This document shows, piece after piece, positions 26,352 to 49,124 of a stretch of 64,000 nucleotides of DNA. The notes under the pieces were generated by a model, which saw nothing but the letters and a program-made list of their open reading frames with translations, was not told the DNA's origin and did no database searches. The stretch's first letter is position 1, and the number at the start of each line of letters is the position of its first letter. This stretch comes from Geoalkalibacter halelectricus (lineage in GTDB: Bacteria; Desulfobacterota; Desulfuromonadia; Desulfuromonadales; Geoalkalibacteraceae), in the NCBI RefSeq assembly GCF_025263685.1, contig NZ_CP092109.1:2171001-2235000 (forward strand), in the 5' to 3' direction. The translations under genes were made by a program, and so were the position numbers.

Positions 26352-27755
26352 TCAATCAAGACCGGATTCTCGCCAGCGCCTCTCGATATCTGCCAGAACA
26401 CTCTCATCCGGCAGCACTGGCGCGCGGCTGTGCTTGCGGGTCGCATCCACGGCCAGGCGCCCCTCGTCTTCAAGGAGATCTCGCTCCGGACGAACCTGAT
26501 TGATGACCCGCCACAACAAGTGCGCACCCTCCCCCACCTCATCCTCCGCATCGATTAGCAGCAACAGACGTGAGCGGCGCAAGGGCCCGGATCGCCACAG
26601 TTCCCGCGCCAGTTCGAGGGGTTTACGAACCGCCTCGGCCTGCAACCCCAGAACCGCGCAGCCATGAAAAACGCCCTCGGTCAGAAAGCGCAGGCTGCGG
26701 ATTTGCGGATAATCCGCTTGCAAAAGCGCGAGCAGCAAAGGTTCGCCCGAGCGCACCAGGTAGGCATTTTCCATGGGCGGAGGCCCCACCACCGTCGCCG
26801 GGAAAAGGGTCTCCTCGGCGCGATACAACCCTCTGAGGTGGAAAACCGGCGCGGGCGCAGCAGGTTGGTAAAATCCGGTGTGGTTGCCGAACGGACCTTC
26901 GGAAGCCCACTCACCCGCAACAATTTCTCCATCCAGGATAACTTCGGCGTCCGCCGCGACCGGCAGCCCGCTCCAGGGAGCGGCAGCCAGCCGCAGGGGT
27001 TGGCTGCGCAGAATATCCAAAAAGCGCCCCTCGTCGATGCTGGTCGGCAAGGGTAAGGCCGCCGCGGCCAGCAGGGCCGGATCGCCACCCAGAGTCACAG
27101 CCAGCGGCAGGGGCTTTTGGCGCCGTTGATAATCGGCGACCAGGCGCGCCCCCAGGGAGTGCGGCAGGAAATGAATGGCACAACGCCGCGCATCAAGAAT
27201 CTGCATCCGGTAAATACCGTAGTTGATGGTTCCCAGGGCTTCATCGCGCATGCTCGCAAGTCCCAGAGTCAGGTAGTGGCCGCCATCCCCCGGCCAAGAC
27301 TTAAGGGCCGGCAACCGGCCCAGGTCGAGAGGTGCTTCAGCCAGGCACAGGCGCTCAGGTGGCGTTCGCGCACTTCCCTCGCGATTCAACAGGTGGTGCA
27401 GGCGTGCCTCAGCGTCGAGTCCAGGAGCCTGACTCAGGCCCTGCGCAAGGCGCTCGCCCAGAAGGTGAGGCGCCTCCTCGCCCCAGGCAAGGGCTGCACG
27501 CCCCTTGCTACCGAATGCATTGGTAAGCACCGGCATATCAAAGCCCTGAACCCGCTGAAACAGAAGCGCCTGCCCCCCCTCTGGGCGCTTGCACTCGCGA
27601 TTGGTAAGCGCGGCGATCTCCAGAAACGGACTAACCTCGCCGGCCACGCGGCACAAATCCTTGTCCGCCAGCAGGCGCCGCACAAAATTCGGCAGGGCGC
27701 GTACCGTGGTCAAGGGGGCGGTGGGAGAATTTTTTTGTTCGTTGATCCCTGTCAT
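26352..27755 (-). CDS. UbiD-family decarboxylase
   Basis: 467 residues, slightly shorter than E. coli UbiD (about 497). UbiD features: ECKRPEGGQALLFQRV near residue 53, TINYGIYRMQILD near 176, VTLGGDPALLAAAALPLP near 220, and the EWASEGPFGNHTGFY segment near 284 that supplies the catalytic Glu-Arg-Glu region with prenylated FMN. Together with the UbiX-like gene it is the probable decarboxylase of the futalosine pathway. It lies apart from the mqnP-ubiX-mqnE-mqnC group, separated by the SLC13 and Slp genes. Confidence 0.85.
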   Translation of the reverse strand: MTGINEQKNSPTAPLTTVRALPNFVRRLLADKDLCRVAGEVSPFLEIAALTNRECKRPEGGQALLFQRVQGFDMPVLTNAFGSKGRAALAWGEEAPHLLGERLAQGLSQAPGLDAEARLHHLLNREGSARTPPERLCLAEAPLDLGRLPALKSWPGDGGHYLTLGLASMRDEALGTINYGIYRMQILDARRCAIHFLPHSLGARLVADYQRRQKPLPLAVTLGGDPALLAAAALPLPTSIDEGRFLDILRSQPLRLAAAPWSGLPVAADAEVILDGEIVAGEWASEGPFGNHTGFYQPAAPAPVFHLRGLYRAEETLFPATVVGPPPMENAYLVRSGEPLLLALLQADYPQIRSLRFLTEGVFHGCAVLGLQAEAVRKPLELARELWRSGPLRRSRLLLLIDAEDEVGEGAHLLWRVINQVRPERDLLEDEGRLAVDATRKHSRAPVLPDESVLADIERRWRESGLD

Positions 27756-27870: not shown

Positions 27871-29331
27871 CTAGAAGATCGCCAGACGCGCCAGATCCAT
27901 GACGGAGCTGGGCAGAATGCCCAATAGAAGAACACCGACTAGGGCGATGACGATAGAAACCATGGCGCCCATGGGCATCTTGACCCAGGCGAAGTCCTCA
28001 ACCGGATCGCGGAAATACATATACACCATGACGCGCAGATAGTAGTAGAGGGAAACGGCCGAAGCCAAAACGCCGATGATCGCCAGCCAGATGTAGCCGG
28101 CCTGAACGGCGCCGGCGAAGATGTAGAATTTCCCAGCGAAACCCGCAGTGGGGGGAAGCCCCATAAGAGAGAAGAGGAAGATTGCCATGGCAACACCGAG
28201 CATGGGGCGCCGATAGCCGAAGCCCGCGAAACCATCCAGGGTCAGGTTGTCCTCGCCCTTCTTCCCGGCAAGAACCAAAATTGCGAAGGCGCCGAGATTC
28301 ATGAAAGTATAGGCAAGCATGTAGAACAAAATCCCGGCGGTGCCTACTTCATTGAAGGCCACCATGCCGACCAGGGCATAGCCGGCGTGCGCCACGGAGG
28401 AATAGGCCAGCATGCGCTTGATGTTGGTTTGAGCGATGGCGATCACGTTACCGATCACCATGGTCAAAACCGCAAGAACCCACAGAAGGCTGGTCCATTG
28501 GTCGGCCATGCCGCCGAGGCCTTCCATGAACACGCGCATGAAGGCGGCAAAGGCGGCGGCCTTGGGTCCGGCGCTCATGAAGGCGGTGACCGGCGTCGGA
28601 GCGCCGTGATAGACATCGGGGGTCCACATGTGGAAGGGAACGGCGGCAATCTTAAACAGAAAGCCCGAGCTCATCAACACCATGCCGGCGACCATGAGGG
28701 GGTTGCCGAGCAGTCCGCCATCGGTTTGCAGTGCGGCAGCGATACCGGCGAGATTGGTGGTGCCGGTGGCGCCGTACACCAGGGCCATGCCGTAGAGCAG
28801 AAAAGCCGTCGAGAAGCTGCCGAGAAGGAAATACTTGAGCCCCGCCTCGTTGGAGCGCAGTTGGCCGCGGAAGAAACCGGCCAGAACATAAAGGCTGATG
28901 GAGAGCACTTCGAGGCCGAGGAAGATGGTGATCAGGTCGGTTCCGGAAGCCATCCACATGGCGCCGGCGATGATGAACAGGATGAGCGGATAGTATTCGC
29001 CGACGGGATAACCCTCGCGCTGGAGGTAGTCCTCCGACATGAGAATCGTCAGAATACCCGCAAGAATAAAGGTCAGATTGAAGAAGGTGGCAAAGTTATC
29101 CAACTGTACAGCGCCGTAAAAGCCGGTTTCGGGGCTCCCCCAGGCGGCCAGGGAAACGAACCCCGTGATCACCAGGGAGGCCAGGCTCAGCCAGGCAATG
29201 GGAGCGGTCTTGCCCTTGGGCAGGAAGACCACCATGAGCAGGATCGCCATGCCGAAGCAGCACAGGACCAGGGACGGCATGACGGCCGCGAGATTGACAT
29301 TCTGGATTGCATCTTGCACCAGGTTTTCCAT
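27871..29331 (-). CDS. nuoN: NADH-quinone oxidoreductase subunit N
   Basis: 486 residues, about fourteen membrane helices. It is one of the three antiporter-like proton channels of complex I. The conserved KYFLLGSFSTAFLLYGMALVYG, the FKIAAVPFHMWTPDVYHGAPTPVTAFMS segment with its central lysine, and VMIGNVIAIAQTNIKRMLAYSS are present. It is the last gene of the operon, about 45 bases after nuoM, and is followed by the strong terminator at 27793-27823. Confidence 0.97.
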   Translation of the reverse strand: MENLVQDAIQNVNLAAVMPSLVLCCFGMAILLMVVFLPKGKTAPIAWLSLASLVITGFVSLAAWGSPETGFYGAVQLDNFATFFNLTFILAGILTILMSEDYLQREGYPVGEYYPLILFIIAGAMWMASGTDLITIFLGLEVLSISLYVLAGFFRGQLRSNEAGLKYFLLGSFSTAFLLYGMALVYGATGTTNLAGIAAALQTDGGLLGNPLMVAGMVLMSSGFLFKIAAVPFHMWTPDVYHGAPTPVTAFMSAGPKAAAFAAFMRVFMEGLGGMADQWTSLLWVLAVLTMVIGNVIAIAQTNIKRMLAYSSVAHAGYALVGMVAFNEVGTAGILFYMLAYTFMNLGAFAILVLAGKKGEDNLTLDGFAGFGYRRPMLGVAMAIFLFSLMGLPPTAGFAGKFYIFAGAVQAGYIWLAIIGVLASAVSLYYYLRVMVYMYFRDPVEDFAWVKMPMGAMVSIVIALVGVLLLGILPSSVMDLARLAIF

Positions 29332-29376
29332 TGAAACGCTCCTCCGGATGCGGTGTTATGCCAAGTCAGTCTTAAA

Positions 29377-30939
29377 TTACTTCAGCAGCGCGTCGGTATG
29401 GGCCGCGGTTTGAACAATCTCAACCTGTGCAACCTGATTGTTCTTGATTTGATCGATCATGTTTTCCAGGGCCGGATTCATCTTCTCGAAGAAGGTGTTG
29501 GGATAGAGCCCGATCCAGAAAACGAACAGCAGCAAGGGCATCATGAGCGCGATTTCGCGAGCATTGAGATCCTTGATATTTTCGTTGGCGGGGTTTTTGA
29601 CCTCTCCGAACATGACCCGTTGGAACATCCACAGCATATAGACCGCGGCAAAGATGACGCCGGTGGTGGCAATCACGGCGAACCAGCGCAGATCACTTTC
29701 AAAGGCACCCAGAAGGATAAGAAATTCGCCGACGAAGCCGTTGGTGCCCGGCAACCCGATAGAGGAGAAGGTCACGATCATAAAGATCGTGGCGAAGATG
29801 GGCATCTGCTTGGCCAGGCCGCCAAAATCGGCGATCAGGCGGGTGTGGCGACGCTCGTAGATGAAGCCGACGATGAGGAACAGCGCGCCGGTGGAAATCC
29901 CATGGTTGATCATCTGGATCATGCCGCCGGACAGGCCCTGGAGATTGAGGGCGAAAAGACCCAGCATGACGAACCCAAGATGCGATACCGAGGAGTAGGC
30001 GACCAGTTTCTTTACATCGTCCTGCATCATCGCGACCAGGGCGCCGTAGATAATCCCGATAACCGCCAGCACCGACAGGAAGGGGATGAACTTAAGGGTC
30101 GCGTCGGGGAACAGCGGCATGGCGAAGCGCAGGTAGCCATAGGTACCCATTTTCAGCAGGATGGCGGCCAGAATAACCGAACCCGCGGTTGGTGCCTCGG
30201 TATGCGCGTCGGGCAACCAGGTATGCACCGGGAACATGGGAACCTTGATGGCAAAGCTGAAGGCGAAGGCCAGGAACAGCCAGATCTGCAGATCAACCGG
30301 GATATCCAGGCGATAGAAGTGCAGGATGCTGAAACCGTTTTCGAAGGCGACTCCCGACTGCAGGGAGAAATAATAAACATAGATGATCGCCACCAGCATC
30401 AGCAGGGAGCCGACGGCGGTGAAGATGAAAAACTTGACGGCTGCATAGATGCGATTCTTCCCACCCCAGATACCGATCATGAAGTACATGGGGATGAGCA
30501 TCAGTTCCCAGAAAATGTAGAACAGGAACAGGTCGAGGGAGATGAACGCGCCGAGCATGGCGGTTTCGAGCAGAAGCATCAGGGCCATGAATCCCTTGAC
30601 GTTCTTATCGACCGCCTTCCAGGTGGACAGCACGGTAATCGGCATGATGAAGGTGGTGAGCAGGACCAGCCACAGGCTGATTCCGTCAACGCCAACGTTG
30701 TAGTTCATCTGAAAGAAGTCACCGACGCTGATCCAGCGGGCGAACTCGGTGTAATGGAAAGCGGCCGAGGTCTTGAAGACATCATCAAAGGCCAACGGCA
30801 GACTGATCAAAAAGGTGATCACTGTCACGACCAGGGTGAAGCTCTTCAGAAGCCCATGATTATCCCTGGGGATGAACAGCAGCAGTACCATCCCGAGAAT
30901 CGGGAAAAACGTCATCAGGCTCAAAAGGTGGTCGGTCAT
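29377..30939 (-). CDS. nuoM: NADH-quinone oxidoreductase subunit M
   Basis: 520 residues with about fourteen membrane helices. It is an antiporter-like proton channel subunit. The [31 protein letters not shown] segment is the hallmark of NuoM/NuoL, and the [15 protein letters not shown] motif follows. The glutamate in the [15 protein letters not shown]-type segment ([12 protein letters not shown]) is conserved. It sits between nuoL and nuoN with short gaps. Confidence 0.97.
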   Translation of the reverse strand: [520 protein letters not shown]

Positions 30940-30982
30940 GGAAATCGCTCCTTATCTCAACAATACAAGGGGTTGGCGCTTT

Positions 30983-32959
30983 TTAGCCGAAGACGTAGTA
31001 AGCAACCATGACAATCACCCCGACCACCATGGCCAACGCATAATTGTGCACCAAGCCGGACTGGGTGAGACGCAATACCCCGGAAAATCCGCGTACAAGA
31101 TAGCCCGTTCCGTTGACGATGCCGTCGACCACCACCACATCGAAGCCTTTCCAGAGGAAGGTGCCGAGTTTCTTGGTGGGCTTGACGAACAGGGCGTCAT
31201 AAATCTCATCGACATACCATTTGTTGAAGATAGCCCGATGCAAACCGCCAACCTTGGCCACCAGTTGCCCGGGAAGTTCCGGACGCTTGAGGTACATGAG
31301 GTAGGCGAGACCGATAGCGATCACCACGATGGCGGTCACAAAGCTCATCAGGCCGTATTCGGCTGCGTGGCTCACATACTGCTTCCCGAGGCCGTAGGTC
31401 TCCTGGGCCGGAGCGAACACAGGGGCCAGGAACTCTCTGAGTCGATAGGTTCCGCCAAGCACCGCCGGCAAGTTCAGATAGCCGCCGAACACCGAGAGGA
31501 CGGCCAATACCACCAGGGGAAGGGTAATCACCCAGGGGGATTCGTGCAGATAGCCCTTGGCCTTGGCGGTAATACGCTCTTCGCCGAAGAAGGTCATGAA
31601 CACCAGGCGGAACATATAGAAGGCGGTCAGGCCGGCGGTAAAGACCGCCACCACCCAGAGCAGGAAGTGTCCTCGATCACCGGCCAGGGTCCAGATCAGG
31701 ATCTCATCCTTGGAGAAGAAGCCCGCGAGTCCCGGCAGACCGGCAATGGCCAGGGTGGCGATCAGGAAGGTAATGAACGTGATGGGCATGTGTTTGCGCA
31801 GACCACCCATGTTGCGCATATCCTGGGGATCGTCGTGAGAGTGAACCTTATGCAACGCATGATGCATGGCGTGGATGACCGAGCCCGAGCCAAGGAACAG
31901 GCAGGCTTTGAAGAAGGCGTGGGTCATCAGATGGAAGATTCCCGCGGTGAATGCGCCGACACCCATGGCCAGAAACATGAAGCCGAGCTGCGAAACCGTG
32001 GAATAAGCGAGTACCCGCTTGATGTCGTTTTGCGCCAGACCAATGGAAGCGGCAAAGATCGCAGTCGCCGCACCGACGATGGCGATCACCATCATGGTGT
32101 CCGGAGCCATAGCGAACAGTCCGTTCATACGGCCGATCATGTAGACGCCGGCGGTGACCATGGTGGCCGCATGGATGAGGGCGGAAACAGGCGTGGGACC
32201 CTCCATGGCGTCAGGAAGCCAGGTATAGAGAGGAATCTGCGCCGACTTGCCGGTGGCTCCGAGGAAAAAGCACAGGGTGATGATGGTCACCACCAGGCTA
32301 CCGGCTCCGAGGAGATGGCCGTGTTCGGCGATTTCCACGAAATTAAGGGTCCAGATGCCGTGATCGCTGCCCAGGGTCCAGAACAGCAGGAAAACGCCCA
32401 GCAAGAAGCCGAAGTCGCCGATTCGGTTGACCACAAAGGCTTTTTTGGCGGCGTCGCCGGCACTCTGCTTATGGAAGTAATAACCGATGAGCAGGTAGGA
32501 GCACAGCCCGACGCCCTCCCAACCGACGAACATGACCATCGCATTGTTGCCCAGCACCAGCATAAGCATGGAGAAGGCAAACAGGTTGAGATAGGAGAAG
32601 TAACGATAGAAGCCCTCTTCCCCATGCATGTAGCCGATTGAATAGAGATGGATCAGGGTGCCGATCCCGGTGACGACGAGCAGCATCACCGCGGAGAGGG
32701 GGTCAAGCAGAAAGCCCCACTCGATCTGGAGGTTTCCGACCGACATCCAGGAGGCTATCACCTGCTGATGGGACTTGACCGTATCGGCTTGAAGCGCGAA
32801 GAAGCACATCACTGATACGATGAAGGATGCAAAGATGGCCAGGGTGCCGATGCCCCCGATCACCTTCTCGTTTTTAATCTTCTTACCAAGCAGGCCGTTG
32901 ATGATGGCGCCCAGCAAGGGAAAAAACGGGATGAGCCATAGCTTGTCGTACATTTCCAT
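30983..32959 (-). CDS. nuoL: NADH-quinone oxidoreductase subunit L
   Basis: 658 residues, the largest antiporter-like subunit, with about sixteen membrane helices and the long lateral helix at the C-terminus. GKSAQIPLYTWLPDAMEGPTPVSALIHAATMVTAGVYMI and DIKRVLAYSTVSQLGFMF are textbook NuoL segments with the central lysine and the catalytic glutamate-lysine pair. It pumps protons as complex I oxidises NADH or reduced ferredoxin with menaquinone. Confidence 0.97.
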   Translation of the reverse strand: MEMYDKLWLIPFFPLLGAIINGLLGKKIKNEKVIGGIGTLAIFASFIVSVMCFFALQADTVKSHQQVIASWMSVGNLQIEWGFLLDPLSAVMLLVVTGIGTLIHLYSIGYMHGEEGFYRYFSYLNLFAFSMLMLVLGNNAMVMFVGWEGVGLCSYLLIGYYFHKQSAGDAAKKAFVVNRIGDFGFLLGVFLLFWTLGSDHGIWTLNFVEIAEHGHLLGAGSLVVTIITLCFFLGATGKSAQIPLYTWLPDAMEGPTPVSALIHAATMVTAGVYMIGRMNGLFAMAPDTMMVIAIVGAATAIFAASIGLAQNDIKRVLAYSTVSQLGFMFLAMGVGAFTAGIFHLMTHAFFKACLFLGSGSVIHAMHHALHKVHSHDDPQDMRNMGGLRKHMPITFITFLIATLAIAGLPGLAGFFSKDEILIWTLAGDRGHFLLWVVAVFTAGLTAFYMFRLVFMTFFGEERITAKAKGYLHESPWVITLPLVVLAVLSVFGGYLNLPAVLGGTYRLREFLAPVFAPAQETYGLGKQYVSHAAEYGLMSFVTAIVVIAIGLAYLMYLKRPELPGQLVAKVGGLHRAIFNKWYVDEIYDALFVKPTKKLGTFLWKGFDVVVVDGIVNGTGYLVRGFSGVLRLTQSGLVHNYALAMVVGVIVMVAYYVFG

Positions 32960-32997
32960 CTCCTCTGTCGATTAGATCGGATCGAATCAGAAATTAA

Positions 32998-33300
32998 TCA
33001 CCATTTGAGCAGGTTGAATTCGTCGACTTCCACGGACTCTTTGTTGCGGAAGAACGCGATCATCAGGGCGAGTCCGACCGCGGCCTCGGCCGCGGCAACC
33101 GACATGATGAAGAGGACGAAGATCTGACCGTCAAGATTGTTCAGAAAGCTCGAAAGAGAGATGAAGGTAAGATTCACGGAATTGAGCATCAGCTCAATGC
33201 ACATGAAAATGACGATCGCATTGCGGCGGGTGAGTACCCCGTACGTCCCCAGAGCAAAGAGAATGCCGCTGAGCACAAGATAATGATAAACGGTAAGCAT
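32998..33300 (-). CDS. nuoK: NADH-quinone oxidoreductase subunit K
   Basis: 100 residues, three membrane helices. [21 protein letters not shown] carries the conserved glutamate of helix 2. [33 protein letters not shown] ends the protein, with the second conserved glutamate. It forms part of the proton path next to NuoJ and NuoA. Confidence 0.97.
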
Positions 33301-33323
33301 GGTCGGCTCCTGTCAATTCCCGT

Positions 33324-33827
33324 CTAAACGTCTTTTTTGGCCAGCACGAGGGCGCCCACGATCGCAATCAGAAGCAAAATCCCGGTTATCTGAAAGGGCA
33401 ACATGAACTCCGTGAACAGCTTCAGGCCCATCAGCTGCATATGCCCTTCTTCCAGCACGCGCTGCCTGGTGATATCACCCTGAACTCCAGCAACCGTGCC
33501 GCGACCGACAAACATCATGACCTGAACCATGACGATTGCCGCGACGATAGCGCCTCCAATCACCCCGTGGCGGAAGCGTTTCAACATCTCCGGCCCCAGG
33601 TTGAGCAGCATGATGACGAAGAGGATGAGGACCATGATCGCCCCGGCGTAGACCAACACCTGTACGGCGGCCATGAAAGGCGCGTACAGCATGACATAGA
33701 ATACGGCCAGGCAGAAAAAGGTCATGACCAGGGAGATGCCGCTGTTGACCGGGTTTTTGCACATGACGACTGAAAAACCGGAAAGGACCGCGACCATCGC
33801 AACCAGATAAAAAAACAGCAATTCCAT
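33324..33827 (-). CDS. nuoJ: NADH-quinone oxidoreductase subunit J
   Basis: 167 residues with five membrane helices. FLVAMVAVLSGFSVVMCKNPVNSGISLV opens the protein. FMAAVQVLVYAGAIMVLILFVIMLLN contains the helix-3 pi-bulge region that couples quinone reduction to proton pumping. It lies between nuoI and nuoK. Confidence 0.95.
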   Translation of the reverse strand: MELLFFYLVAMVAVLSGFSVVMCKNPVNSGISLVMTFFCLAVFYVMLYAPFMAAVQVLVYAGAIMVLILFVIMLLNLGPEMLKRFRHGVIGGAIVAAIVMVQVMMFVGRGTVAGVQGDITRQRVLEEGHMQLMGLKLFTEFMLPFQITGILLLIAIVGALVLAKKDV

Positions 33828-33847
33828 GAGGCTTCGCTCCTTTCCGC

Positions 33848-34243
33848 TTAACGCAGCAGCCGCTCTTTGGTGAATTCGAAATCCGACCGCCGGTAGTTGG
33901 CCAATTCATACTCCCCGGTCATTTCAAGCGCCTCGACAGGACAGGCTTCAACACAGTAGCCGCAGAAAATGCAGCGCAGCATGTCGATCTTGTAGACCCG
34001 GGGGTATTTTTCCCCCTTTTCATTCTCCGCCGATTCAACGGTGATGCACTTGGCCGGACAAACCGTCGGGCACAGGTAGCAGGCCACGCATTTTTCCCGG
34101 TCCTGGGTGGGCACCAGACGGTGCAGCCCCCGATACCGCTCGGACGGCGTCAATTTGACATGGGGATATTGAACCGTCGTGCTGTGCCCCGGCAGCAGAT
34201 GTTTGAAAGTGATGCTCAAACCCTTGGCAAATTCTTTGAACAT
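33848..34243 (-). CDS. nuoI: NADH-quinone oxidoreductase subunit I
   Basis: 131 residues. Two [4Fe-4S] ferredoxin motifs: CVACYLCPTVCPAKC near residue 53 and CIFCGYCVEACPVEAL near 92. These form clusters N6a and N6b, which carry electrons from NuoG toward NuoB. An N-terminal amphipathic helix docks the protein on the membrane arm. Confidence 0.97.
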   Translation of the reverse strand: MFKEFAKGLSITFKHLLPGHSTTVQYPHVKLTPSERYRGLHRLVPTQDREKCVACYLCPTVCPAKCITVESAENEKGEKYPRVYKIDMLRCIFCGYCVEACPVEALEMTGEYELANYRRSDFEFTKERLLR

Positions 34244-34273: not shown

Positions 34274-35317
34274 TTATTGCACCAGAAGAACGACAATGCC
34301 AGTGACGATCAAGTTGGCCAGACCAAGTGGAATGAGCACCTTCCAGCCCATGGTCATCAGTTGGTCGTACCTGACGCGCGGCATGGTGGCGCGCAGCCAG
34401 ATGGCGAAGAACATGAACGCCACGATTTTAAGCAGAAGATTGATCGGACCGAAGAAGGGACCGGACCATCCGCCGAGGAAAAGAGTGGCGGCGATAGCGG
34501 CGATAACCACCATGTTCGCATACTCAGCCATGAAGAACAGGGCGTACTTCATGGATGAGTACTCGGTGCAGAAGCCTGAGACCAGCTCCGATTCCGCCTC
34601 GGGCAAGTCGAAGGGGGTGCGGTTGATTTCAATCAAGGAGGTCAGAATGAACAGACCGAAGGCCAGCGGCTGGGAGAAAATGTACCAGTTGGGCAAAAAG
34701 GTAATGGTGCCCCACAGGGGTTCCATCTGCAACGCGACGATTTCACGCAGGCTCAGGGTTTCCGAGAGCATGAATACCGCAACGATGGATAGACCTGCCG
34801 CCAGTTCGAAGGAGATCATCTGCGCGGTGGAGCGTATTCCGCCCAGCAAGGAATACTTGCTGTTCGAGGCCCACCCGGCCAGCACGATCCCGTAGGCGCC
34901 CAGGCTGGCCATGGCCAGAACATAGAGCACACCGACGTTGAGATCCGTTATTTGCAGGGGCACGATGTAGCCGCCAATTTCAATATCACGCCCGAAAGGT
35001 ACGACCGCGAAAGTGATGAAGGCGGGCACCAGAAGCATCATGGGCGCAAGGACGAAGGTAAATTTGGCTGCCTTGGCCGGAATGATGTCTTCCTTGAAAA
35101 AAAGCTTAAGGCCGTCGGCAATCGGCTGCAAAAGGCCATGCCACCCTGTTTCCATGGGGCCAAGCCGAGTCTGCATGTGGCCGATGACTTTGCGCTCCAG
35201 CCAGGTCGCATAGGCAACGATCAGTATAACGACCACAAAAACGACCAGGATCTTCACGAGCATCGTGGAGACGAACAAGGGCCAGTTGTTGGAGAGACTC
35301 ACAATCTCAGGCGTCAT
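34274..35317 (-). CDS. nuoH: NADH-quinone oxidoreductase subunit H
   Basis: 347 residues, about eight membrane helices. ERKVIGHMQTRLGPMETGWHGLLQPIADGLKL and EINRTPFDLPEAESELVSGFCTEYSSMKYALFFMAEYANM are the two diagnostic segments, carrying the charged residues that line the quinone channel and the E-channel. It is separated from nuoG by a TPR gene, which is not usual for this operon. Confidence 0.97.
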   Translation of the reverse strand: MTPEIVSLSNNWPLFVSTMLVKILVVFVVVILIVAYATWLERKVIGHMQTRLGPMETGWHGLLQPIADGLKLFFKEDIIPAKAAKFTFVLAPMMLLVPAFITFAVVPFGRDIEIGGYIVPLQITDLNVGVLYVLAMASLGAYGIVLAGWASNSKYSLLGGIRSTAQMISFELAAGLSIVAVFMLSETLSLREIVALQMEPLWGTITFLPNWYIFSQPLAFGLFILTSLIEINRTPFDLPEAESELVSGFCTEYSSMKYALFFMAEYANMVVIAAIAATLFLGGWSGPFFGPINLLLKIVAFMFFAIWLRATMPRVRYDQLMTMGWKVLIPLGLANLIVTGIVVLLVQ

Positions 35318-35351: not shown

Positions 35352-36314
35352 TCAAAATCCAGGCTTGTGGGGCGTGGCCATTTCCCCGAGGTGCTTGCTG
35401 AGATATTGCGCCTCGCGATGATTTGGATTGATCGCGAGCGCCTTTTGGATGGCCTTGCGCGCTTCATCGAGAAAATCGAGTTGCAGGTTGCACTCGGCAA
35501 TTCGCACCAGGGCGTCGGCATCCTTCGCATTGATCTCCAGGACCTTGCTGTAGGCACTGATCGCCTCGGAGAAATCCCCCATGCGCCGATTGGATTCGCC
35601 GAGCATGTACAGCGCCGGCGCAAAGCGCGCATTGGTTTCGGCCGCGCGGTTAAATTCCTGTGCCGCTTCGGGGAGCATCCCCTCCTTGAAATAGGCCATT
35701 GCCAATTCAAAGCGCGCTGCCGTGTAGGTGGGACTCAAATCAACCACCCGCCGGAATTGCTCGATAGCCGAGGCATAGTCGCCTTTTTGCGAATAAACCA
35801 TGCCGAGCATGTAGAGGACCCGCGTGTAATTGGGATTGATGCGGGCGGCCTCCTGAAGTGACTTCTCCGCTTGAGCGAGATCCGTGTTGCGCAGGTAGGA
35901 TAGCCCCAGGCGATAGTGGGTTTCGGCACTATTGGGGTTGAGTTCCCGCGCTTTGAGAAAATTCTCGATGCTCGCATCAAGATCACCAAGTCCGTATTGG
36001 GCCATGCCAAGCTTGAAGTAGACGCGGAACAGATCCTTTTCGCCCTCCAGAGCCTTTTGGAAGCATGCCACCGCCGCCTCCAGGTCGCCCTGGTCGTATA
36101 GGGCAAGCCCTTTGTAGTATTGGGCCTTGGCGGAGCAAGGGTCGATCTTGAGAACCTCCTCCCAACAACCAAGGGCATCCTCAATCATCCCCCGATGGAA
36201 CAGGTCCAGTGCCTTCTTGTGGACGAACTCGGCATCGCTGGCGAGGTTGGCGCCACACTGATCGCAGAACTTCGCCTGGGCCGAAACTGAAGCGCTACAC
36301 TTGGAACATTGCAT
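35352..36314 (-). CDS. Zinc-ribbon and tetratricopeptide-repeat protein inside the nuo operon
   Basis: About 320 residues from the ATG at 36314, preceded by GAGGAG. The frame extends to 36371 but would overlap nuoG. It opens with a zinc ribbon, MQCSKCSASV...FCDQCGANL, then eight or more consecutive TPR units of 34 residues (for instance YYKGLALYDQGDLEAAVACF and YRLGLSYLRNTDLAQAEKSL). TPR arrays bind partner proteins. No signal peptide is seen, so it acts in the cytoplasm. It sits between nuoG and nuoH, 13 bases after nuoG and 34 bases before nuoH, and shares the operon, so a role in complex I assembly or regulation is the natural guess. No such role is established. Confidence 0.88.
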   Translation of the reverse strand: MQCSKCSASVSAQAKFCDQCGANLASDAEFVHKKALDLFHRGMIEDALGCWEEVLKIDPCSAKAQYYKGLALYDQGDLEAAVACFQKALEGEKDLFRVYFKLGMAQYGLGDLDASIENFLKARELNPNSAETHYRLGLSYLRNTDLAQAEKSLQEAARINPNYTRVLYMLGMVYSQKGDYASAIEQFRRVVDLSPTYTAARFELAMAYFKEGMLPEAAQEFNRAAETNARFAPALYMLGESNRRMGDFSEAISAYSKVLEINAKDADALVRIAECNLQLDFLDEARKAIQKALAINPNHREAQYLSKHLGEMATPHKPGF

Positions 36315-36327
36315 GGTTGGCTCCTCG

Positions 36328-38820
36328 CTAGACGCTTGCCTTGCTGATTTCAACCGCCACGGCGGCTTCACCGCGGAACACCTTATTCACACCGGCATCG
36401 GCAAAATGGTAGGGAACGAAAACCATGCCGCGCTGAAGCCTTTTGCCTATCTTGGCCTTGAGCCGCAACTCCTCGCCGTTGCCACGCACTGAGACCAGGT
36501 CGGCATCAGCGATGCCGAGTTCAGCAGCATCCTCGGAGGCAAATTCGACGTAGGATTCGGCCATGGCGGCAAGGGGTCCCTTAGCCCGCACCGAAAGCGT
36601 TCCGCTGTGGTACAGCGCACTTCCAGTGACCATTTGAAACCTTGCAGCCACCGGCTCTCCTCCGGCGACCGCCTTGACCTTGCGCCATTGGGGTGCAAGG
36701 TTTTCGCCGCCCCAGACCACACCCTGCGGCCCAATGGCGTCAAAATTCAGCCCTTGATAACCGGGCACCGATGAGGCCATTTCCGCAAACACGGCCTTAG
36801 GCCCGGTAAAGGACAGGGAACTCCCCATGCGGCCGGCCAACAAGGAAAAAATAGCCAGATCGCTACGTGCCTCGCCGGGGCTCTTGACGCCAGGACGCAG
36901 GCGCTGCACCCGACGCTCGGCGTTGGTGAAGGTACCGTCCTTTTCCGCGAATGAGACGGCCGGCAAAATCACATCGGCTTCTCGAGCGGTCTCGGTGAGA
37001 AAGAGATCCTGAACGACAAGAAAGGGAACTTTCTCCAGGGCCGCCTGGGTCCGAGCACGATCGGGGTAGGACGCCAGGGGATCCTCGCCGATGACATAAA
37101 GAGCGGACAGTTCACCATCGGCGGCGGCCGCGAGCATCTGCTGGGCGCCCATTCCGCCTTGCCGCGGCACAATGGCCTGGTCGATGGCGCCTTGGCTGTT
37201 GGCTTTTTCACCGCAGAGAAACAGGCCGCCTTTTTCACCATCAAGCGCGCCACAAAGAATGGCCAGGTTGGCGGCAGCCACTCCAAGTTCCCGCGAGTAA
37301 GCATTGTAGGGCAGGCCATAGGCCAACAAAATCGCCTTATTCTTGCCCTGAGCCAAGTCACGCGCGGCTTTCTCGATGGCCTCGGCGGAGATACCGGCTT
37401 TCGCGGCCACGACCTTAGGAGCGAAATCGGCCAGGGCCGCGCGCAGGGCTTCCACACCCTCCACCCCGTCGGTCTGAGCGAGATCCTCAACCAGAAGCAC
37501 ATGGGCCAAGGCATTGAGAATGCTGATTTCCGTTCCCGGCTTGGTCAGCAGAGTCTGGGTTCCAGGCAATTTAGTGAATTTACCCTTTTTGTCGCTGACG
37601 ACGACAAACTTGGCATTGTGGCGCTTGACGGCTTGGTTGACTACCATGCCGAAAACCGGATGGGTTTCGTAGAAATCGCTGCGAATCGCAAGAATCGCAT
37701 CGCACTCCTCGACCTGCGGAAAGGTACCGGTTGAGGCTTTCACGCCCAGGGTTTCAGCCAACCCCTCGGTGACCCCCTTGTAACACTCCCCACCACTGTG
37801 ATCGAGATGAGGAGTCCGAAGCACCTTGTCGGCCAAATGGCCAAGGAAAAAGAATTCTTCGTTGGTCAGACGCCCGCCGCTGAGGATGCCGACTCCTTTA
37901 TCCCCGCGAGCTTTCTCGAAACCTGCGGCCACGGCATCCATGGCCTCGCTCCAGGAAGCTGGCTCAAGCCGACCGTGCTTGCGCACCAGGGGCTTTTGCA
38001 GGCGATCCTCGGCATTGATGAAGGAGTAGCCAAAACGCCCGCGGACACAGAGATTGCCGTCGTTTACGCCAATCTTGTCGTTGAAACGGATGGTTTCTAC
38101 CTTGTTATTGAGCACACCGAGGGTCAGGGTGCAGCCATTGCCGCAATATCCGCACACGGAATCAACTTCCTTGAGCTGCCAGGGACGGGCCTTAAACTTA
38201 AACGGCCGCGGCAGGAGAGCGCCGACCGGACACATGGAGACGCACTGGCCGCAGAATTCACAATTGAGTTCGCGATCATAGGCCGTGGCCACCTTGGTAT
38301 CGAAGCCGCGGTTGATAAAGCTGTAGGACCCGTAGGCAACGATTTCATCACAGACCCGCACACACTTGCCGCACAGGACACAGCGATTCATGTTTCTTTC
38401 AATGAAGGGATTGCGCTCATCGGTTTCAAGACTGAACTTGGCGTCCTTGAAGCGGTTGCCGCAGACTTCAAACTCGTAGGTAAGATCCTGCAGGTCGCAT
38501 TCGCCGCCCTTATCGCAGATCGGACAATCAACCACATGATTGACCAGCAGAAATTCCATGACCGTCTTGCGCACCTTGTTGATCTGTTCCGAAGTGGTGG
38601 TCACCACCATGCCCTCGGTCACCGGGGTGGTGCAGGCGGGGATCAGGCGCCCCTTCATCTGCTCAACCTCCACCAGACACACCCGGCAGGCGCCGTAAGG
38701 CAGCAGTTTCTTGGCATGGCACAAGACCGGGATTTTAATGCCCGCATCCTCGGCTGCGTCGAGAATAGTGGCAGCCTTGCTTGCCTGAACCTGTTTTCCG
38801 TCTATCGTCAGAGTAACCAT
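36328..38820 (-). CDS. nuoG: NADH-quinone oxidoreductase subunit G
   Basis: 830 residues. The N-terminal [2Fe-2S] site is CHAKKLLPYGACRVC, followed by the HVVDCPICDKGGECDLQ segment and two [4Fe-4S] motifs, CVLCGKCVRVCDE and CEFCGQCVSMCPVGAL. CGYCGNGCTLTLG at about 225 opens the molybdopterin-oxidoreductase-like domain, which in complex I carries no molybdenum but may hold the extra cluster N7. The C-terminal part (VTGSALYHSGTLS, VRGNGEELRLKAKIG) is the molydopterin-dinucleotide-like domain. It carries electrons from NuoF to NuoI. Confidence 0.96.
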   Translation of the reverse strand: MVTLTIDGKQVQASKAATILDAAEDAGIKIPVLCHAKKLLPYGACRVCLVEVEQMKGRLIPACTTPVTEGMVVTTTSEQINKVRKTVMEFLLVNHVVDCPICDKGGECDLQDLTYEFEVCGNRFKDAKFSLETDERNPFIERNMNRCVLCGKCVRVCDEIVAYGSYSFINRGFDTKVATAYDRELNCEFCGQCVSMCPVGALLPRPFKFKARPWQLKEVDSVCGYCGNGCTLTLGVLNNKVETIRFNDKIGVNDGNLCVRGRFGYSFINAEDRLQKPLVRKHGRLEPASWSEAMDAVAAGFEKARGDKGVGILSGGRLTNEEFFFLGHLADKVLRTPHLDHSGGECYKGVTEGLAETLGVKASTGTFPQVEECDAILAIRSDFYETHPVFGMVVNQAVKRHNAKFVVVSDKKGKFTKLPGTQTLLTKPGTEISILNALAHVLLVEDLAQTDGVEGVEALRAALADFAPKVVAAKAGISAEAIEKAARDLAQGKNKAILLAYGLPYNAYSRELGVAAANLAILCGALDGEKGGLFLCGEKANSQGAIDQAIVPRQGGMGAQQMLAAAADGELSALYVIGEDPLASYPDRARTQAALEKVPFLVVQDLFLTETAREADVILPAVSFAEKDGTFTNAERRVQRLRPGVKSPGEARSDLAIFSLLAGRMGSSLSFTGPKAVFAEMASSVPGYQGLNFDAIGPQGVVWGGENLAPQWRKVKAVAGGEPVAARFQMVTGSALYHSGTLSVRAKGPLAAMAESYVEFASEDAAELGIADADLVSVRGNGEELRLKAKIGKRLQRGMVFVPYHFADAGVNKVFRGEAAVAVEISKASV

Positions 38821-38855: not shown

Positions 38856-40637
38856 CTATTCGATGGCCATGAAGCGGCAGGCATCATAGCAGGATGTGCA
38901 CTTGGTGCACTTTTCCTTATCGATGACGGCAAGTTGTCCCTTTTCCCAAATAACGGCATCGACGGGACAGATCTTGTAGCACAGGCCACATTTCTTGCAG
39001 GCAGCGTCGACGACTTCAAACTTGAGCAGCGCCTTGCAGGAATTTGACGGACACCTCTGATTGTGGATGTGCGCCTCGTATTCATGGCGAAAGTAGCGGA
39101 TGGTTGAAAGCACCGGGTTCGGCGCCGTTTGGCCAAGACCGCAAAGCGAGGCTTTCTTGATGTCGTAGCACATGTCCTCGAGCAGTTCGATATCGCCTTC
39201 CTGGCCCCTACCCTCGGTAATGCGCTCGAGGATATCGAGCATAAGCTTGAGGCCGATTCGGCAGGGAACGCATTTGCCGCAGGACTCCATGCGGGTGAAG
39301 TTGAGGAAGAAGCGTGCGATGTCGACCATGCAGGTGGTTTCGTCCATGACGACCAGACCACCGGAGCCCATCATCGCTCCCGCCTTGATCAGCGAATCGT
39401 AATCGACCTCGGCGTCGATCGCCTCGCCGGGCAGACAACCGCCCGAGGGCCCCCCGGCCTGAACGGCCTTGAACTTGCGGTTATTGAGAATACCACCGCA
39501 GACGTCGTAGATAACCTCGCGCATGGTGATGCCGGCGGGAACCTCGACAAGGCCGGTATGCTTGACCTTGCCGGTGAGGGCGAAGATCTTGGTGCCTTTG
39601 GTGCCCTCGGTGCCGATGGAGGCGAACCAGTCGCCGCCGCGATAGAAGATGTAGGAAACGTTGGCGAAGGTTTCCACGTTGTTGATGTTGGTGGGCTTGG
39701 TCCACAGGCCGCGCACCGCGGGGAAAGGCGGGCGCGGGCGCGGCATGCCGCGCTCACCCTCGATGGAGGCCATCAGGGCGGTTTCCTCGCCGCAGACGAA
39801 GGCCCCGGCGCCGGCCTTGATGCGCAGGTCGAAGTTGAATCCGAGCCCCAGGCAGTTCTTGCCGAGAAACCCCTTTTCGTAGCAGACGTCAATGGCTTTT
39901 TGCAGGCGCTTGATGGCCAGGGGATACTCGGCACGCACATAGACATAGCCGAATTCGGCGCCGATGGCGTAGGAGGCGATCATCATCCCCTCGATCAACC
40001 CATAGGGATCGCCTTCGAGGATGGAGCGATCCATGAACGCGCCGGGATCGCCTTCGTCGGCGTTGCAGATCAGATACTTTTCCTTGCCGGGCGAGGCGGC
40101 GCAAAAACTCCACTTGACCCCGGTCGGAAAACCACCGCCCCCGCGCCCGCGCAGGCCGGATTTCTTGACCTCTTCGATGACCTCCTGGGGGGTCATGGTG
40201 ACGGCCTTTTTTATCCCCGAAAAACCTTCCATGGCGAGGAAGTCGTCAAGACTCTCGGCATCGATGGTCCCGCAGCGCGAGAACACCACGCGCATCTGCT
40301 TTTCCAGAAACTTCTGATAATAGGGGCCGGCTTTTTTCTTCTCCACCACCTGCCCCTGCAGGATGTGCTCCTCGACGATCTGTGGCACCATCTCCGGCTT
40401 GACAAAGTCGTAGGTCACGGCCGCCTGGCCGGGGATCACGATATCGACCAGCACGTCGTTGGCACACAGCCCGCGGCAGCCGGTTCCGACCAAGGTACAG
40501 CGCTTGCCGACCTTGGCATCGACGCCGTGCTTATCAAACTCGGCCTGAAAGGCCTCCTCGACGGGTTTGGCGCCAGCGGCCAGACCACCCGTTCCCTGGC
40601 AAATGAGTACCCTGATCTGATCTTCGAACGCGGCCAT
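38856..40637 (-). CDS. nuoF: NADH-quinone oxidoreductase subunit F with C-terminal ferredoxin domain
   Basis: 593 residues, longer than the 445 of E. coli. Residues 1 to about 110 are a thioredoxin-like [2Fe-2S] domain. The NuoF core follows: LRGRGGGGFPTGVKWSF (FMN site), CNADEGDPGAFMDRS and the ESCGKCVPCRIG cluster N3 motif. The last 60 residues add two [4Fe-4S] motifs, CKKCGLCYKICPVDAV and CTKCTSCYDAC. This fused form is shared with NAD-reducing hydrogenase and formate dehydrogenase subunits. It oxidises NADH and could in principle also accept electrons from ferredoxin. Confidence 0.95.
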   Translation of the reverse strand: MAAFEDQIRVLICQGTGGLAAGAKPVEEAFQAEFDKHGVDAKVGKRCTLVGTGCRGLCANDVLVDIVIPGQAAVTYDFVKPEMVPQIVEEHILQGQVVEKKKAGPYYQKFLEKQMRVVFSRCGTIDAESLDDFLAMEGFSGIKKAVTMTPQEVIEEVKKSGLRGRGGGGFPTGVKWSFCAASPGKEKYLICNADEGDPGAFMDRSILEGDPYGLIEGMMIASYAIGAEFGYVYVRAEYPLAIKRLQKAIDVCYEKGFLGKNCLGLGFNFDLRIKAGAGAFVCGEETALMASIEGERGMPRPRPPFPAVRGLWTKPTNINNVETFANVSYIFYRGGDWFASIGTEGTKGTKIFALTGKVKHTGLVEVPAGITMREVIYDVCGGILNNRKFKAVQAGGPSGGCLPGEAIDAEVDYDSLIKAGAMMGSGGLVVMDETTCMVDIARFFLNFTRMESCGKCVPCRIGLKLMLDILERITEGRGQEGDIELLEDMCYDIKKASLCGLGQTAPNPVLSTIRYFRHEYEAHIHNQRCPSNSCKALLKFEVVDAACKKCGLCYKICPVDAVIWEKGQLAVIDKEKCTKCTSCYDACRFMAIE

Positions 40638-40690
40638 AAAATCAATTCCCCGACGCTTTGTATGGGTTGGCTGAAATGCTCTCGCTCGCC

Positions 40691-41194
40691 TTAATCCATC
40701 GCCCGGTATTTTTCGACGACTTCTTCCATCTTTTTCACCGAAATACTGCCGTAGGTGGCCTCGTTGACCATGATGACGGGAGCCATCCCGCAGGCGCCGA
40801 TGCAGGCCACGTGCTCAACGGTGAACTTGAGATCCTCGGTGGTTTCCGCATGACCTATGCCCAACATGTCAGAAAGCGTATCGGCAATGCGGCCCGCCCC
40901 CTTGACGTGACACGCGGTCCCCATGCAGACACGCACGATGTATTTCCCGCGTGGCTCGAGGTGGAACTGCGCGTAGAAGGTCAACACCCCATAAATCTGG
41001 CTCAGGTAGACATTGAGCCGCTCAGCAATCAAATGAATGCAGGGCTCGGGAAGATAGCCGTAGGCGTCCTGCACTTCCTGCAGAACCGGCATCAGGGCGC
41101 CCTTGAGGTTGAGATATTTATCAATCACCTGGTTGGCGGGGCCAAGATCGATTTCTTCCTGCTCGGGTGCCACCGGCGCTTCAGCGTTACTCAT
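40691..41194 (-). CDS. nuoE: NADH-quinone oxidoreductase subunit E
   Basis: 167 residues. The thioredoxin-like [2Fe-2S] fold with conserved cysteines VCMGTACHVKGA (near 90) and CIGACGMAPVIMVNEATYG (near 130), cluster N1a. It pairs with NuoF in the NADH-oxidising module. It lies between nuoD and nuoF. Confidence 0.96.
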   Translation of the reverse strand: MSNAEAPVAPEQEEIDLGPANQVIDKYLNLKGALMPVLQEVQDAYGYLPEPCIHLIAERLNVYLSQIYGVLTFYAQFHLEPRGKYIVRVCMGTACHVKGAGRIADTLSDMLGIGHAETTEDLKFTVEHVACIGACGMAPVIMVNEATYGSISVKKMEEVVEKYRAMD

Positions 41195-41223
41195 GGAGAA
41201 ACCCTCTCTGCGGTGAATGACAA

Positions 41224-42405
41224 TTAACGGTCGATATCGCCGAGAACGATATCGAGAGTTCCGATGACCGCGACCACGTCGGCGATCATCCGCCCTTGAA
41301 CCATCTGCGGCAAGGCCTGCAGGTTCAGGAAGGACGGCGGGCGAATCTTCATACGATAAGGCCGCCCGGAACCGTCGGAAACAAGGTAGAAACCAAGTTC
41401 TCCCTTGGGAGCTTCGATACTTTGGTAGATTTCACCAGCCTCAGGCTTGAACCCTTCGGTGACAAGCTTGAAGTGATGAATCAAACCTTCGATGGTTTCA
41501 ACCACATCTTTTTTCGGCGGCAAACAAACCTTGGGCACATCGGCAAGAATCGGGCCCGGCTTGAGTTTGTCGAGGGTCTGAAGCACTATCTTGCAGGACT
41601 CGCGCATTTCCTGCAGGCGCACCTCATAGCGGGCCCAGGTATCGCAGCCGTCACTCACCGGAACCTTGAATTCATATTCCTCGTAACCGCTGTAGGGATG
41701 GTCGCGCCGCAGATCCCAATCCACCCCGGACCCACGCAGACTCGAACCGGTGATCCCGATATCCAGAGCGTTTTCGCCGCTGATGACGCCGACATCCTTA
41801 ATGCGCTTTTGCCAAATTTTGTTGCCGGTCAGCAGCCCCTCATAGGTATCGATGTGCCCGGGCATCGACTCGACGAATTCGCGCACCTGCTTCTCGAAGC
41901 CGTCCGGCAAATCGGCCGAAAGACCGCCGACGCGGAAATAATTGGAGGTCATGCGCGCGCCCGAGATCTTCTCGTACATTTCCATGATGTGTTCGCGCTC
42001 ACGGAAACAGTAAATGAAGACGGTCATGGCGCCGATATCCAGGGCATGACAGGCCAGCCATACCAGGTGACTCTTGATTCGCGTCAACTCGGCGAGCATC
42101 ACCCGGATGACCTTGGCCCGCTCTGGGATGGCATCGGTGATTCCCAGCAGCTTCTCAACCGCGAGGACATAGCCCAGGTTGTTGGCCATGGGCGCCAGAT
42201 AATCGAGACGATCCGTGAGGGGAATCACCTGATGGTAGGTACGATACTCGGAGAGCTTTTCCACCCCGCGATGCAGATAGCCGATATGCGGCGTGGCCTT
42301 GACGACGTTCTCGCCCTCAAGCTCCAGAACGAGCCGCAACACCCCGTGGGTCGAAGGGTGCTGGGGCCCCATATTTACAGTCATGGTTTCGGTTGTCGCT
42401 GCCAT
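41224..42405 (-). CDS. nuoD: NADH-quinone oxidoreductase subunit D
   Basis: 393 residues, separate from NuoC rather than fused to it. TVNMGPQHPSTHGVLRLVLELEGE opens the protein, carrying the conserved histidines at the quinone site. PHIGYLHRGVEKLSEYRTY and the C-terminal IGTLDIVLGDIDR complete the NiFe-hydrogenase-like large-subunit fold, without metal-binding cysteines. It forms the quinone pocket with NuoB and NuoH. Confidence 0.97.
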   Translation of the reverse strand: MAATTETMTVNMGPQHPSTHGVLRLVLELEGENVVKATPHIGYLHRGVEKLSEYRTYHQVIPLTDRLDYLAPMANNLGYVLAVEKLLGITDAIPERAKVIRVMLAELTRIKSHLVWLACHALDIGAMTVFIYCFREREHIMEMYEKISGARMTSNYFRVGGLSADLPDGFEKQVREFVESMPGHIDTYEGLLTGNKIWQKRIKDVGVISGENALDIGITGSSLRGSGVDWDLRRDHPYSGYEEYEFKVPVSDGCDTWARYEVRLQEMRESCKIVLQTLDKLKPGPILADVPKVCLPPKKDVVETIEGLIHHFKLVTEGFKPEAGEIYQSIEAPKGELGFYLVSDGSGRPYRMKIRPPSFLNLQALPQMVQGRMIADVVAVIGTLDIVLGDIDR

Positions 42406-42446
42406 GGCGTGCCTCGTTCCTTTGGAGTTTCTCGATTAGGTTCCCG

Positions 42447-42938
42447 TCAAACTTCCCGACCCTGATAGGGCTCGCGACCAGGACCCTGAACCGGGTAGTC
42501 CTTGCGCAGGGGATGGCCGACCCAATCGTCGGGCATGAGAATGCGGCGCAAATCGGGATGATTATTGAAGGAAATGCCCATGAGATCCCAGCATTCGCGC
42601 TCCAGCCAGTTGGCCGAGCCCCACACTCCGCTGACGGTATCGATGCGCGGATCGCTCTCGGTCACGGGCGCCTTGAGCCGCAACCTTTGCTTGGCCTTCA
42701 TGTTGTAGATGTTGTAGACCACCTGAAAGCGCGGCCCCGACCCGCCCATGGCGAGCAGATCAACCCCACACAGGTCGGCAAGCATGGTGAAGCCCAAGTC
42801 ATTCTTGCAATAGGCACAGATGGACAGGACATCCTCGGCCTTCACCGTAACCGTCACCTCGCCGCGAAACTCCTTGACGTCGAGCACCGCGGAAGGGAAT
42901 TTCGCCTTGAGCTTTTCTACTACAGCCTGATCGGTCAT
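42447..42938 (-). CDS. nuoC: NADH-quinone oxidoreductase subunit C
   Basis: 163 residues. The PDLRRILMPDDWVGHPLRKDYP motif near residue 120 is the family signature, along with ERECWDLMGISFNNHP. A peripheral-arm subunit that contacts NuoD. It is a separate gene from nuoD, as in Geobacter and most bacteria outside the enterics. Confidence 0.96.
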   Translation of the reverse strand: MTDQAVVEKLKAKFPSAVLDVKEFRGEVTVTVKAEDVLSICAYCKNDLGFTMLADLCGVDLLAMGGSGPRFQVVYNIYNMKAKQRLRLKAPVTESDPRIDTVSGVWGSANWLERECWDLMGISFNNHPDLRRILMPDDWVGHPLRKDYPVQGPGREPYQGREV

Positions 42939-42987
42939 CCTTCTATCCTCATCTCAAGGTATACGAACCCAAGAATCAAGCCAGGGA

Positions 42988-43497
42988 TCAAACCTCCCTG
43001 ACGACCTCGCCAAGCCCGATGGCGGCCCCGAAGGTGTTGCGCTCCTTCATGATCTTCTCCTGGAGCTTGAGCAACCCGTACAGCAGCCCCTCGGGGCGCG
43101 GAGGACAACCGGGAATGTAAACATCGACGGGAAGAGCCTCGTCGACACCCTGCACCGTGCTATAGGTATCAAAAACCCCGCCGGAGCAGGCACAGGCGCC
43201 CATGGCGATGACATAGCGCGGTTCGGGCATCTGGTCGTAAACCGTCTGGATCACAGGGAGCATCTTCTTGGTCACCGTTCCGGCAATGACGATCAAATCG
43301 GCCTGCCGCGGCGAAGCGCGAAAGAGAACGCCGAAGCGGTCGAGGTCAAAGCGGGCGGCGCCGGTGGCCATCATCTCGATGGCGCAGCAGGCCAGACCGA
43401 ATGTCATCGGCCAGAGAGAACGGGACCGGGACCAGTTGACGACCTTGTCCAGGCTGGTGGTGACAAAGTTGCTTCCCAGAGGCTGATCTACTCCCAT
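42988..43497 (-). CDS. nuoB: NADH-quinone oxidoreductase subunit B
   Basis: 169 residues. [23 protein letters not shown] near residue 34, [18 protein letters not shown] near 98, and [20 protein letters not shown] near 128 supply the four cysteines of the terminal [4Fe-4S] cluster N2, which hands electrons to quinone. It overlaps nuoA by about 10 bases. Confidence 0.97.
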
Positions 43498-43850
43498 TCC
43501 AGTGCTCCTTTTTTCCAGTCATAGATGAAGCCGACGATGAGGACAAACACAAAAACCCCCATGACCGCGGCGCCATAAAGACCCAACTGCTTGAACACCA
43601 CCGCCCAGGGGTACATGAAGACCACCTCGAGATCGAACACGATAAAGGCGACCGCCACCAGATAAAATTTGATGGAAACGCGCTCGCGCGCGGACCCAAC
43701 GGGCGGCAGACCGCACTCATAGGGGGCAAACTTGACAGGGCTCGGATCGCGCTTCTTCATCCCGATCAAGCCGGAGAAAATCACCGAACCGAGGGCGAAA
43801 GCCAGTGCGATTCCGATGAGGACAAGAACCGGCAGATAAGCGTCAAGCAT
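43488..43850 (-). CDS. nuoA: NADH-quinone oxidoreductase subunit A
   Basis: 120 residues, three membrane helices. [44 protein letters not shown] is the diagnostic loop, with the cysteine exposed in the resting enzyme. First gene of the nuo operon, preceded by GGGAGGTGTC and the promoter at 43927-43955. The run nuoA-B-C-D-E-F-G-(TPR)-H-I-J-K-L-M-N is complete. Confidence 0.96.
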
Positions 43851-46766: not shown

Positions 46767-46779
46767 GATGCGATGCCTC

Positions 46780-47775: not shown

Positions 47776-47776
47776 T

Positions 47777-49099: not shown

Positions 49100-49124
49100 C
49101 TCAAGCGGTTCCTGAACAACGGCC

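Follow-up and report, generated by a model that had tools for sequence, protein, structure and literature searches.

Gene content of the nuo locus

The window, that is, the whole analyzed stretch of 64,000 nucleotides from Geoalkalibacter halelectricus, harbors a complete set of nuo genes (nuoA to nuoN), which form an operon extending on the minus strand from position 43850 down to 27871. As the original prediction had maintained, the 14 nuo genes are otherwise in canonical order, with one additional gene inserted between nuoG and nuoH, which coincides exactly with the predicted open reading frame on the minus strand and encodes a protein of 320 amino acids. All 14 subunits were named by NCBIfam, with those encoded by nuoA and nuoJ giving matches only below the cut-offs. 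The features considered in this study are as follows.

38856..43850, minus strand: nuoA to nuoF (NCBIfam)
36328..38820, minus strand: nuoG (TIGR01973, 471.1 bits, cut-off 470.05)
36321..36326, minus strand: ribosome-site-like GAGGAG of the TPR gene (direct reading)
35352..36314, minus strand: TPR gene, encoding the zinc-ribbon/eight-TPR protein P0001 of 320 amino acids (open reading frame list, Pfam, alignment, AlphaFold model)
36243..36314, minus strand: predicted N-terminal zinc ribbon, residues 1 to 24, with C3, C6, C17, and C20 (Pfam and cysteine invariance)
35418..36233, minus strand: eight TPR units, residues 28 to 299 (AlphaFold model and alignment)
35355..35375, minus strand: C-terminal tail TPHKPGF, residues 314 to 320 (low confidence in the model; alignment)
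34274..35317, minus strand: nuoH (NF004741, 362.1 bits, cut-off 305)
27871..34243, minus strand: nuoI to nuoN (NCBIfam)
26352..27755, minus strand: gene for a UbiD-family decarboxylase, following nuoN (first of two markers of the putative operon scar in the Syntrophotalea family)
25707..26255, minus strand: gene for an Slp-family lipoprotein (second of the two putative scar markers)

The TPR gene is separated by 13 bases from the nuoG stop codon and by 34 bases from the nuoH start, and the GAGGAG stretch located 7 to 12 bases upstream of its ATG agrees with the ribosome site of its own that had been predicted. Within the operon region, the promoter scan returned 3 sigma-70-like sites versus a mean of 7.3 in shuffled sequences, and 26 terminator-like stems were counted versus a mean of 17.2; the Rfam search gave only three tRNAs.

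As regards the surroundings, an rnf cluster (45556 to 49204) lies directly upstream of nuoA, with RnfC recognized at 572.5 bits and the other rnf genes named by eye, and its neighbors are the same in several relatives. The MoeA-like gene located between this cluster and nuoA on the plus strand (44232 to 45530) scored 355.1 bits against NCBIfam MoeA, under the cut-off of 440, and no match to it was listed in the comparison with the flanks of other genomes. NuoF (38856 to 40637) presents a weak N-terminal ferredoxin-like match and a C-terminal 4Fe-4S match; it scored 509.3 against TIGR01959, below the cut-off of 558.65, and exceeded the cut-off of NF010120. In total, PF00146 (NuoH family) was matched four times in the genome of G. 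halelectricus, which implies that several complex I-like enzymes coexist.

Predicted architecture of the TPR protein

The original prediction had described a protein with eight or more TPR units and a zinc ribbon, an architecture that our analysis confirmed. The Pfam family TPR_2 matched seven stretches of the protein (E value 3.7e-54, 176.8 bits against a cut-off of 27), which thus lies above the Pfam cut-off for TPR repeat proteins and displays tandem 34-residue helix-turn-helix units. The AlphaFold model, computed with 26 aligned relatives, has a mean pLDDT of 94.6 and features eight TPR helix pairs, which span residues 28 to 295, followed by a capping helix (300 to 311), while residues 316 to 320 have a pLDDT under 50. 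Scores over the gathering cut-offs were also obtained for other members of the TPR clan (TPR_CcmH_CycH, 58.9 versus 42; TPR_Slam, 56 versus 35.2; ANAPC3, 72 versus 27.2), which we took as probable cross-matching of repeats and did not count as membership.

The N terminus contains two CxxC knuckles, and its first 30 residues, searched alone, are marginally over the Pfam cut-off for Zn_ribbon_3 (27.4 bits versus 27) and also exceed those for DZR (27.5 versus 27.3) and Zn_Ribbon_1 (27 versus 25). The region can therefore be assigned to the zinc ribbon domains, with metal binding being predicted; C3, C6, C17, and C20 are unchanged in 26 out of 26 aligned copies. No signal peptide was recognized by eye.

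The eight canonical TPRs resemble those of the consensus TPR superhelix in PDB entry 8chy (Z score 29.2 and rmsd 1.8 over 272 residues against the model) and those of the OGT-type superhelix in PDB entry 1w3b. Different from OGT-type superhelices, the protein has no glycosyltransferase part and bears an additional zinc ribbon and tail; the common fold does not show a function. By sequence, the PDB search retrieved designed and eukaryotic TPR proteins, with MamA ranking lower, and 10 matches were found in PHROGs, nine of which have unknown function, including one to residues 1 to 33.

Comparison with known bacterial TPR proteins revealed likeness in the repeats and differences elsewhere. MamA (NF040959), which is not known to have a zinc ribbon, is the best NCBIfam match, a TPR match whose 143.4 bits remain under the cut-off of 200, as do the scores of three orthologues (130.4, 117.3, and 106.9 bits). 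LapB/YciM, a cytoplasmic-side adaptor likewise combining TPRs and a zinc module, matched at 67.1 bits at best, below the NCBIfam LapB cut-offs of 363 to 474; LapB is anchored in the membrane by its N terminus and carries a rubredoxin-type domain at its C terminus, whereas the zinc module of the protein examined here is N terminal. Finally, YbgF/CpoB (TIGR02795, cut-off 90.1) was matched at 68.1 bits, and one orthologue from a locus devoid of nuo genes (L021) exceeded the cut-off with 94.3 bits over a TPR-only stretch (residues 202 to 308). YbgF is periplasmic, whereas the protein of the window has no signal peptide discernible by eye and carries a zinc ribbon.

Distribution of the orthologous family

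Full-length or nearly full-length orthologues (50 to 100% identity, E values of at most 1.3e-99) were detected in 30 of the 58 genomes comprising G. halelectricus and its relatives, with a sharp gap before the next match (5.4e-19). Alignment A1 includes 26 of them, without G056, G001, G030, and G023; the first of these was omitted because an earlier stop truncates its C terminus, and it was included in the later comparisons. Extending the search to the order Desulfuromonadales, we retrieved an orthologue in 40 out of 136 genomes (E value up to 1e-60). Only 4 of the 297 genomes of the phylum sample matched at 1e-40: two contain orthologues and both belong to Desulfuromonadales, while the other two matches (6.8e-43 and 4.9e-41) start at residues 41 and 38, past the zinc ribbon. 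Similarly, 47 of the 58 genomes of the sister order matched at E values up to 1e-20 (best, 1.7e-33), with alignments beginning at residue 21 or later among the matches listed.

Judging from these sequence matches, the orthologous family appears to be found only in Desulfuromonadales among the genomes searched. Among the 24 loci with named sources, 23 contain orthologues and the remaining one a distant TPR protein; the carriers are, among others, Geoalkalibacter sp., Geothermobacter hydrogeniphilus, Pelobacter sp., Desulfuromonas sp. CSMB_57, and numerous metagenome-assembled genomes of Desulfuromonadales. We found no description of such a zinc-ribbon/TPR family in the open-licence PMC literature, where it appears to be undescribed. 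The possibility of a chance open reading frame was ruled out by the conservation of the family and by its low dN/dS values (see below).

Association with nuoH in Desulfuromonadales

Outside the Syntrophotalea family, 28 out of 28 orthologues are located immediately upstream of nuoH and in the same direction, according to their coordinates. The nuoG side is visible in 27 of these carriers, with nuoG and nuoH matches 1011 to 1057 bases apart, and the contig of the remaining one (G056) starts at the TPR gene. We read 27 of the 72 junctions of nuoH-bearing noncarriers: a nuoG match was present in 23, at 50 to 108 bases from nuoH, and was missing from 4, three belonging to family f18 and one being G380. 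The TPR gene was also absent from all five nuoG-nuoH junctions read in the sister order. On a NuoH plus NuoG tree of 60 genomes (FastTree), the presence of the gene changes 7 times, compared with 20.2 times on average and never fewer than 15 times when shuffled 500 times. The placement between nuoG and nuoH, shared by all 28 nuo-linked carriers, is a conserved association, going beyond chance.

As a separate observation, the nuoH genes of the three f18 loci (L089, L090, and L091) encode proteins 74 to 78% identical to that of the window, and no nuoG match occurs in the stretches of 3.5 to 4 kb read, which possibly indicates an 11-subunit form.

Starting from the placement of the gene, the original prediction had proposed an assembly or regulatory factor of complex I. 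The strict site and the short spacing to both nuoG and nuoH are in line with a dedicated assembly or stability factor of one clade, which would have been re-used in the Syntrophotalea family after the loss of the operon there. However, canonical nuoH (a match at an E value up to 1e-110) occurs in 100 of the 136 genomes of the order, only 28 of which have the TPR gene; the absence from most related nuo operons, which the original prediction had regarded as contrary to its proposal, was therefore encountered in 72 genomes. Furthermore, if the gene had been gained only once, 8 losses would have to be assumed on the nuo tree, or 6 when G025 is left out. Taken together, these data imply that complex I does without the TPR protein. 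Families f5 and f13 comprise both carriers and noncarriers, and none of the well-filled NuoH columns or of the columns of the NuoG piece splits the two consistently within these families. A dedicated factor would be expected wherever its complex I is present and nowhere else; this pattern is contradicted by the 72 genomes without the gene and by 12 carriers that have no canonical nuoH. Hence, the link of the locus with complex I stands as a conserved junction, whereas the dedicated role is not supported, and we regard it as rather unlikely.

The position at the border between the peripheral-arm and membrane-arm genes could also suggest a supernumerary subunit of the mature enzyme, sitting at the junction of the two arms. 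This appears very improbable, given that the gene is optional in the order and conserved without a canonical nuo operon, and that gene order does not equal position in the complex.

Retention of the gene without the operon in the Syntrophotalea family

The 12 carriers lacking canonical nuoH make up the rest of the orthologues and all belong to family f4, the Syntrophotalea/Pelobacter group, where the TPR gene occurs in 12 of 14 genomes (9 out of 9 among those with a completeness of 90% or more and a contamination of 5% or less) and canonical nuoH in none. One of these carriers (G418) corresponds to Desulfuromonas sp. CSMB_57, as judged by contig position. We read all 12 loci: UbiD, cobO, and Slp genes lie downstream of the TPR gene in every case, with UbiD within 5 kb, a pcnB-like gene precedes it in all 10 loci having that flank, and no nuo gene match was observed within the stretches read. 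In the window, L066, and L073, UbiD and Slp genes follow nuoN, and UbiD was noted in this place in several other nuo-linked genomes. Since UbiD identities to the protein of the window overlap (39 to 44% in nuo-less loci and 35 to 48% in nuo-linked loci), the orthology of UbiD rests mainly on position. The nuo-less locus resembles a scar left by the loss of the operon, the simplest reading being that deletions removed both halves and spared the TPR gene. For P. carbinolicus, such a loss has been published (PMC2923632): one NADH dehydrogenase I complex was "entirely lost", all fourteen of its structural genes included, and another was retained; the terms TPR and tetratricopeptide do not occur in this account.

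The constancy of UbiD downstream of the gene in these loci, and its occurrence after nuoN elsewhere, might point to a partner of the UbiD decarboxylase. We consider this reading far-fetched: a hydantoinase A/B pair (hyuAB) intervenes in 8 of the 12 nuo-less loci, carriers G029, G024, and G016 have no UbiD match in the 11 to 14 kb read after nuoN, and the noncarrier G034 does have one after nuoN. The loci with hyuAB between the TPR gene and UbiD are L021, L022, L023, L075, L076, L077, L079, and L083, and those without it in this place are L024, L025, L081, and L082.

A NuoH of about 50% identity (50 to 52%) is present in four of the five f4 genomes compared, and the client of the TPR protein could there be a second complex I. 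One f4 carrier rated 99% complete (G039) shows no protein match to NuoH (PF00146), NuoD (PF00346), or PF03116, an absence that does not amount to proof because the genome is a draft. PF03116 (Rnf/Nqr) was matched in 5 of the 14 genomes of the family, and 7 of the 12 carriers have no such match, which rules out a dependence of the TPR gene on Rnf.

Nine nuo-less pairs with dS under 1 gave dN/dS values of 0.04 to 0.12; nuo-linked pairs gave 0.05 to 0.11, values that are imprecise because most of these pairs have dS above 1. No dS was obtained for 5 of the 55 codon pairs of nuo-less copies and for 1 of the 8 pairs of nuo-linked copies. The 11 nuo-less rows exclude the contig-edge fragment G422 (= L083), and L065, which occupies the same contig place as G017, was dropped as a duplicate from the dN/dS, groove, and tail comparisons. 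The TPR gene is under purifying selection in a family lacking the operon. It follows that its product probably acts as a shared helper rather than as a dedicated part of complex I.

Conservation of the groove and of the C-terminal tail

Positions 2, 5, 9, 12, and 13 of each repeat, assigned to the concave side, have a mean conservation of 0.83, versus 0.63 at the other noncore TPR positions (40 versus 168 positions; Mann-Whitney p 2.5e-6); the difference from the TPR core (0.80) is not significant (p 0.12). The groove is invariant at 17 of 40 positions in 39 copies, 14 of the 17 being in TPR1 to TPR5; in particular, the invariant residues include H32, H40, Y66, Y73, D74, R97, Y107, E131, Y134, R142, R165, Q176, F202, P233, and E240. 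Such conservation is expected for any ligand. The groove is equally conserved in copies with and without the operon, an observation suggestive of a single ligand other than the operon products. This also weighs against a dedicated complex I factor, since a new ligand acquired after the loss of nuo should have altered the groove.

The C terminus behaves differently. TPHK occurs near the end of 25 of the 28 nuo-linked copies and of 0 of the 11 nuo-less copies, a confinement that speaks for a dedicated factor and likewise for the adaptor proposed below. TPHKPGF is the exact end of 22 copies, while G025 has a final Y, and G048 (TPHKSG) and L070 continue differently; the nuo-linked copies without the tail are G029, G040, and G056. 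All seven tail codons vary synonymously among the 25 copies; the constraint therefore acts on the protein, and it was ruled out that the tail serves nuoH translation as a signal in the DNA or RNA. As the nuo-less copies form one clade, the loss of the tail in the Syntrophotalea family counts as one event.

The same data bear on the reading of the protein as a passenger, i.e., a TPR protein of the cytoplasm whose function is unrelated (e.g., stress, envelope, or menaquinone linked) and which resides in the operon for expression only. Its retention without canonical nuoH in the Syntrophotalea family, including the genome with no NuoH or NuoD match and the seven carriers with no PF03116 match, speaks for it, but the single fixed junction in all 28 nuo-linked carriers, with one copy per genome at E values up to 1e-60, and the association of the tail with nuo speak against it; we judge this explanation possible, yet on the unlikely side.

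A possible shared adaptor in complex I biogenesis

On the whole, we tentatively favor a soluble cytoplasmic adaptor that is encoded with complex I without being dedicated to it, in which the groove would hold a housekeeping partner and the tail would be of use to complex I or to another component that disappeared with the operon. It is possible to hypothesize that the groove of TPR1 to TPR5 would bind an extended peptide of this partner (a chaperone, protease, or membrane-insertion factor), which would exist with or without complex I, that the docking site of the tail would be a nuo product or a different client that vanished along with the operon, and that the protein would thereby link the housekeeping partner with complex I during its formation. 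With this nuo client gone from the Syntrophotalea family, the tail would have decayed there, while the groove would still serve other clients. The protein may have a nonexclusive role in complex I biogenesis, at which the tail hints. Points against the adaptor are that the loss of the tail is a single event, that three nuo-linked copies have no tail either, that a second complex I could be the client in most of the f4 genomes compared, that the groove is not significantly more conserved than the TPR core, and that no well-filled column of NuoH or of the NuoG piece sets carriers apart. A more specific version, in which the protein would be a new bridging cochaperone, with a groove carrying a general biogenesis factor and a tail acting as a detachable complex I address that was lost with the operon while the groove was kept, is speculative and seems improbable; if it were true, complex I biogenesis in Desulfuromonadales would use a two-part adaptor unknown in model bacteria.

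A non-subunit helper has been proposed for Nuo maturation in Escherichia coli, namely, RavA-ViaA, described as a MoxR ATPase and its cofactor (PMC3893208). The TPR protein would likewise be a non-subunit Nuo helper, of a protein type that differs by description.

The locus offers a caution, as operon position alone is no guide to function. Little is known about the proteins that assist complex I biogenesis in bacteria, and the TPR protein represents a conserved candidate. Moreover, the order provides a natural experiment, with relatives that have the protein without the operon and others that have the operon without the protein, which separates the groove from the tail and shows where the partner of each should be sought.
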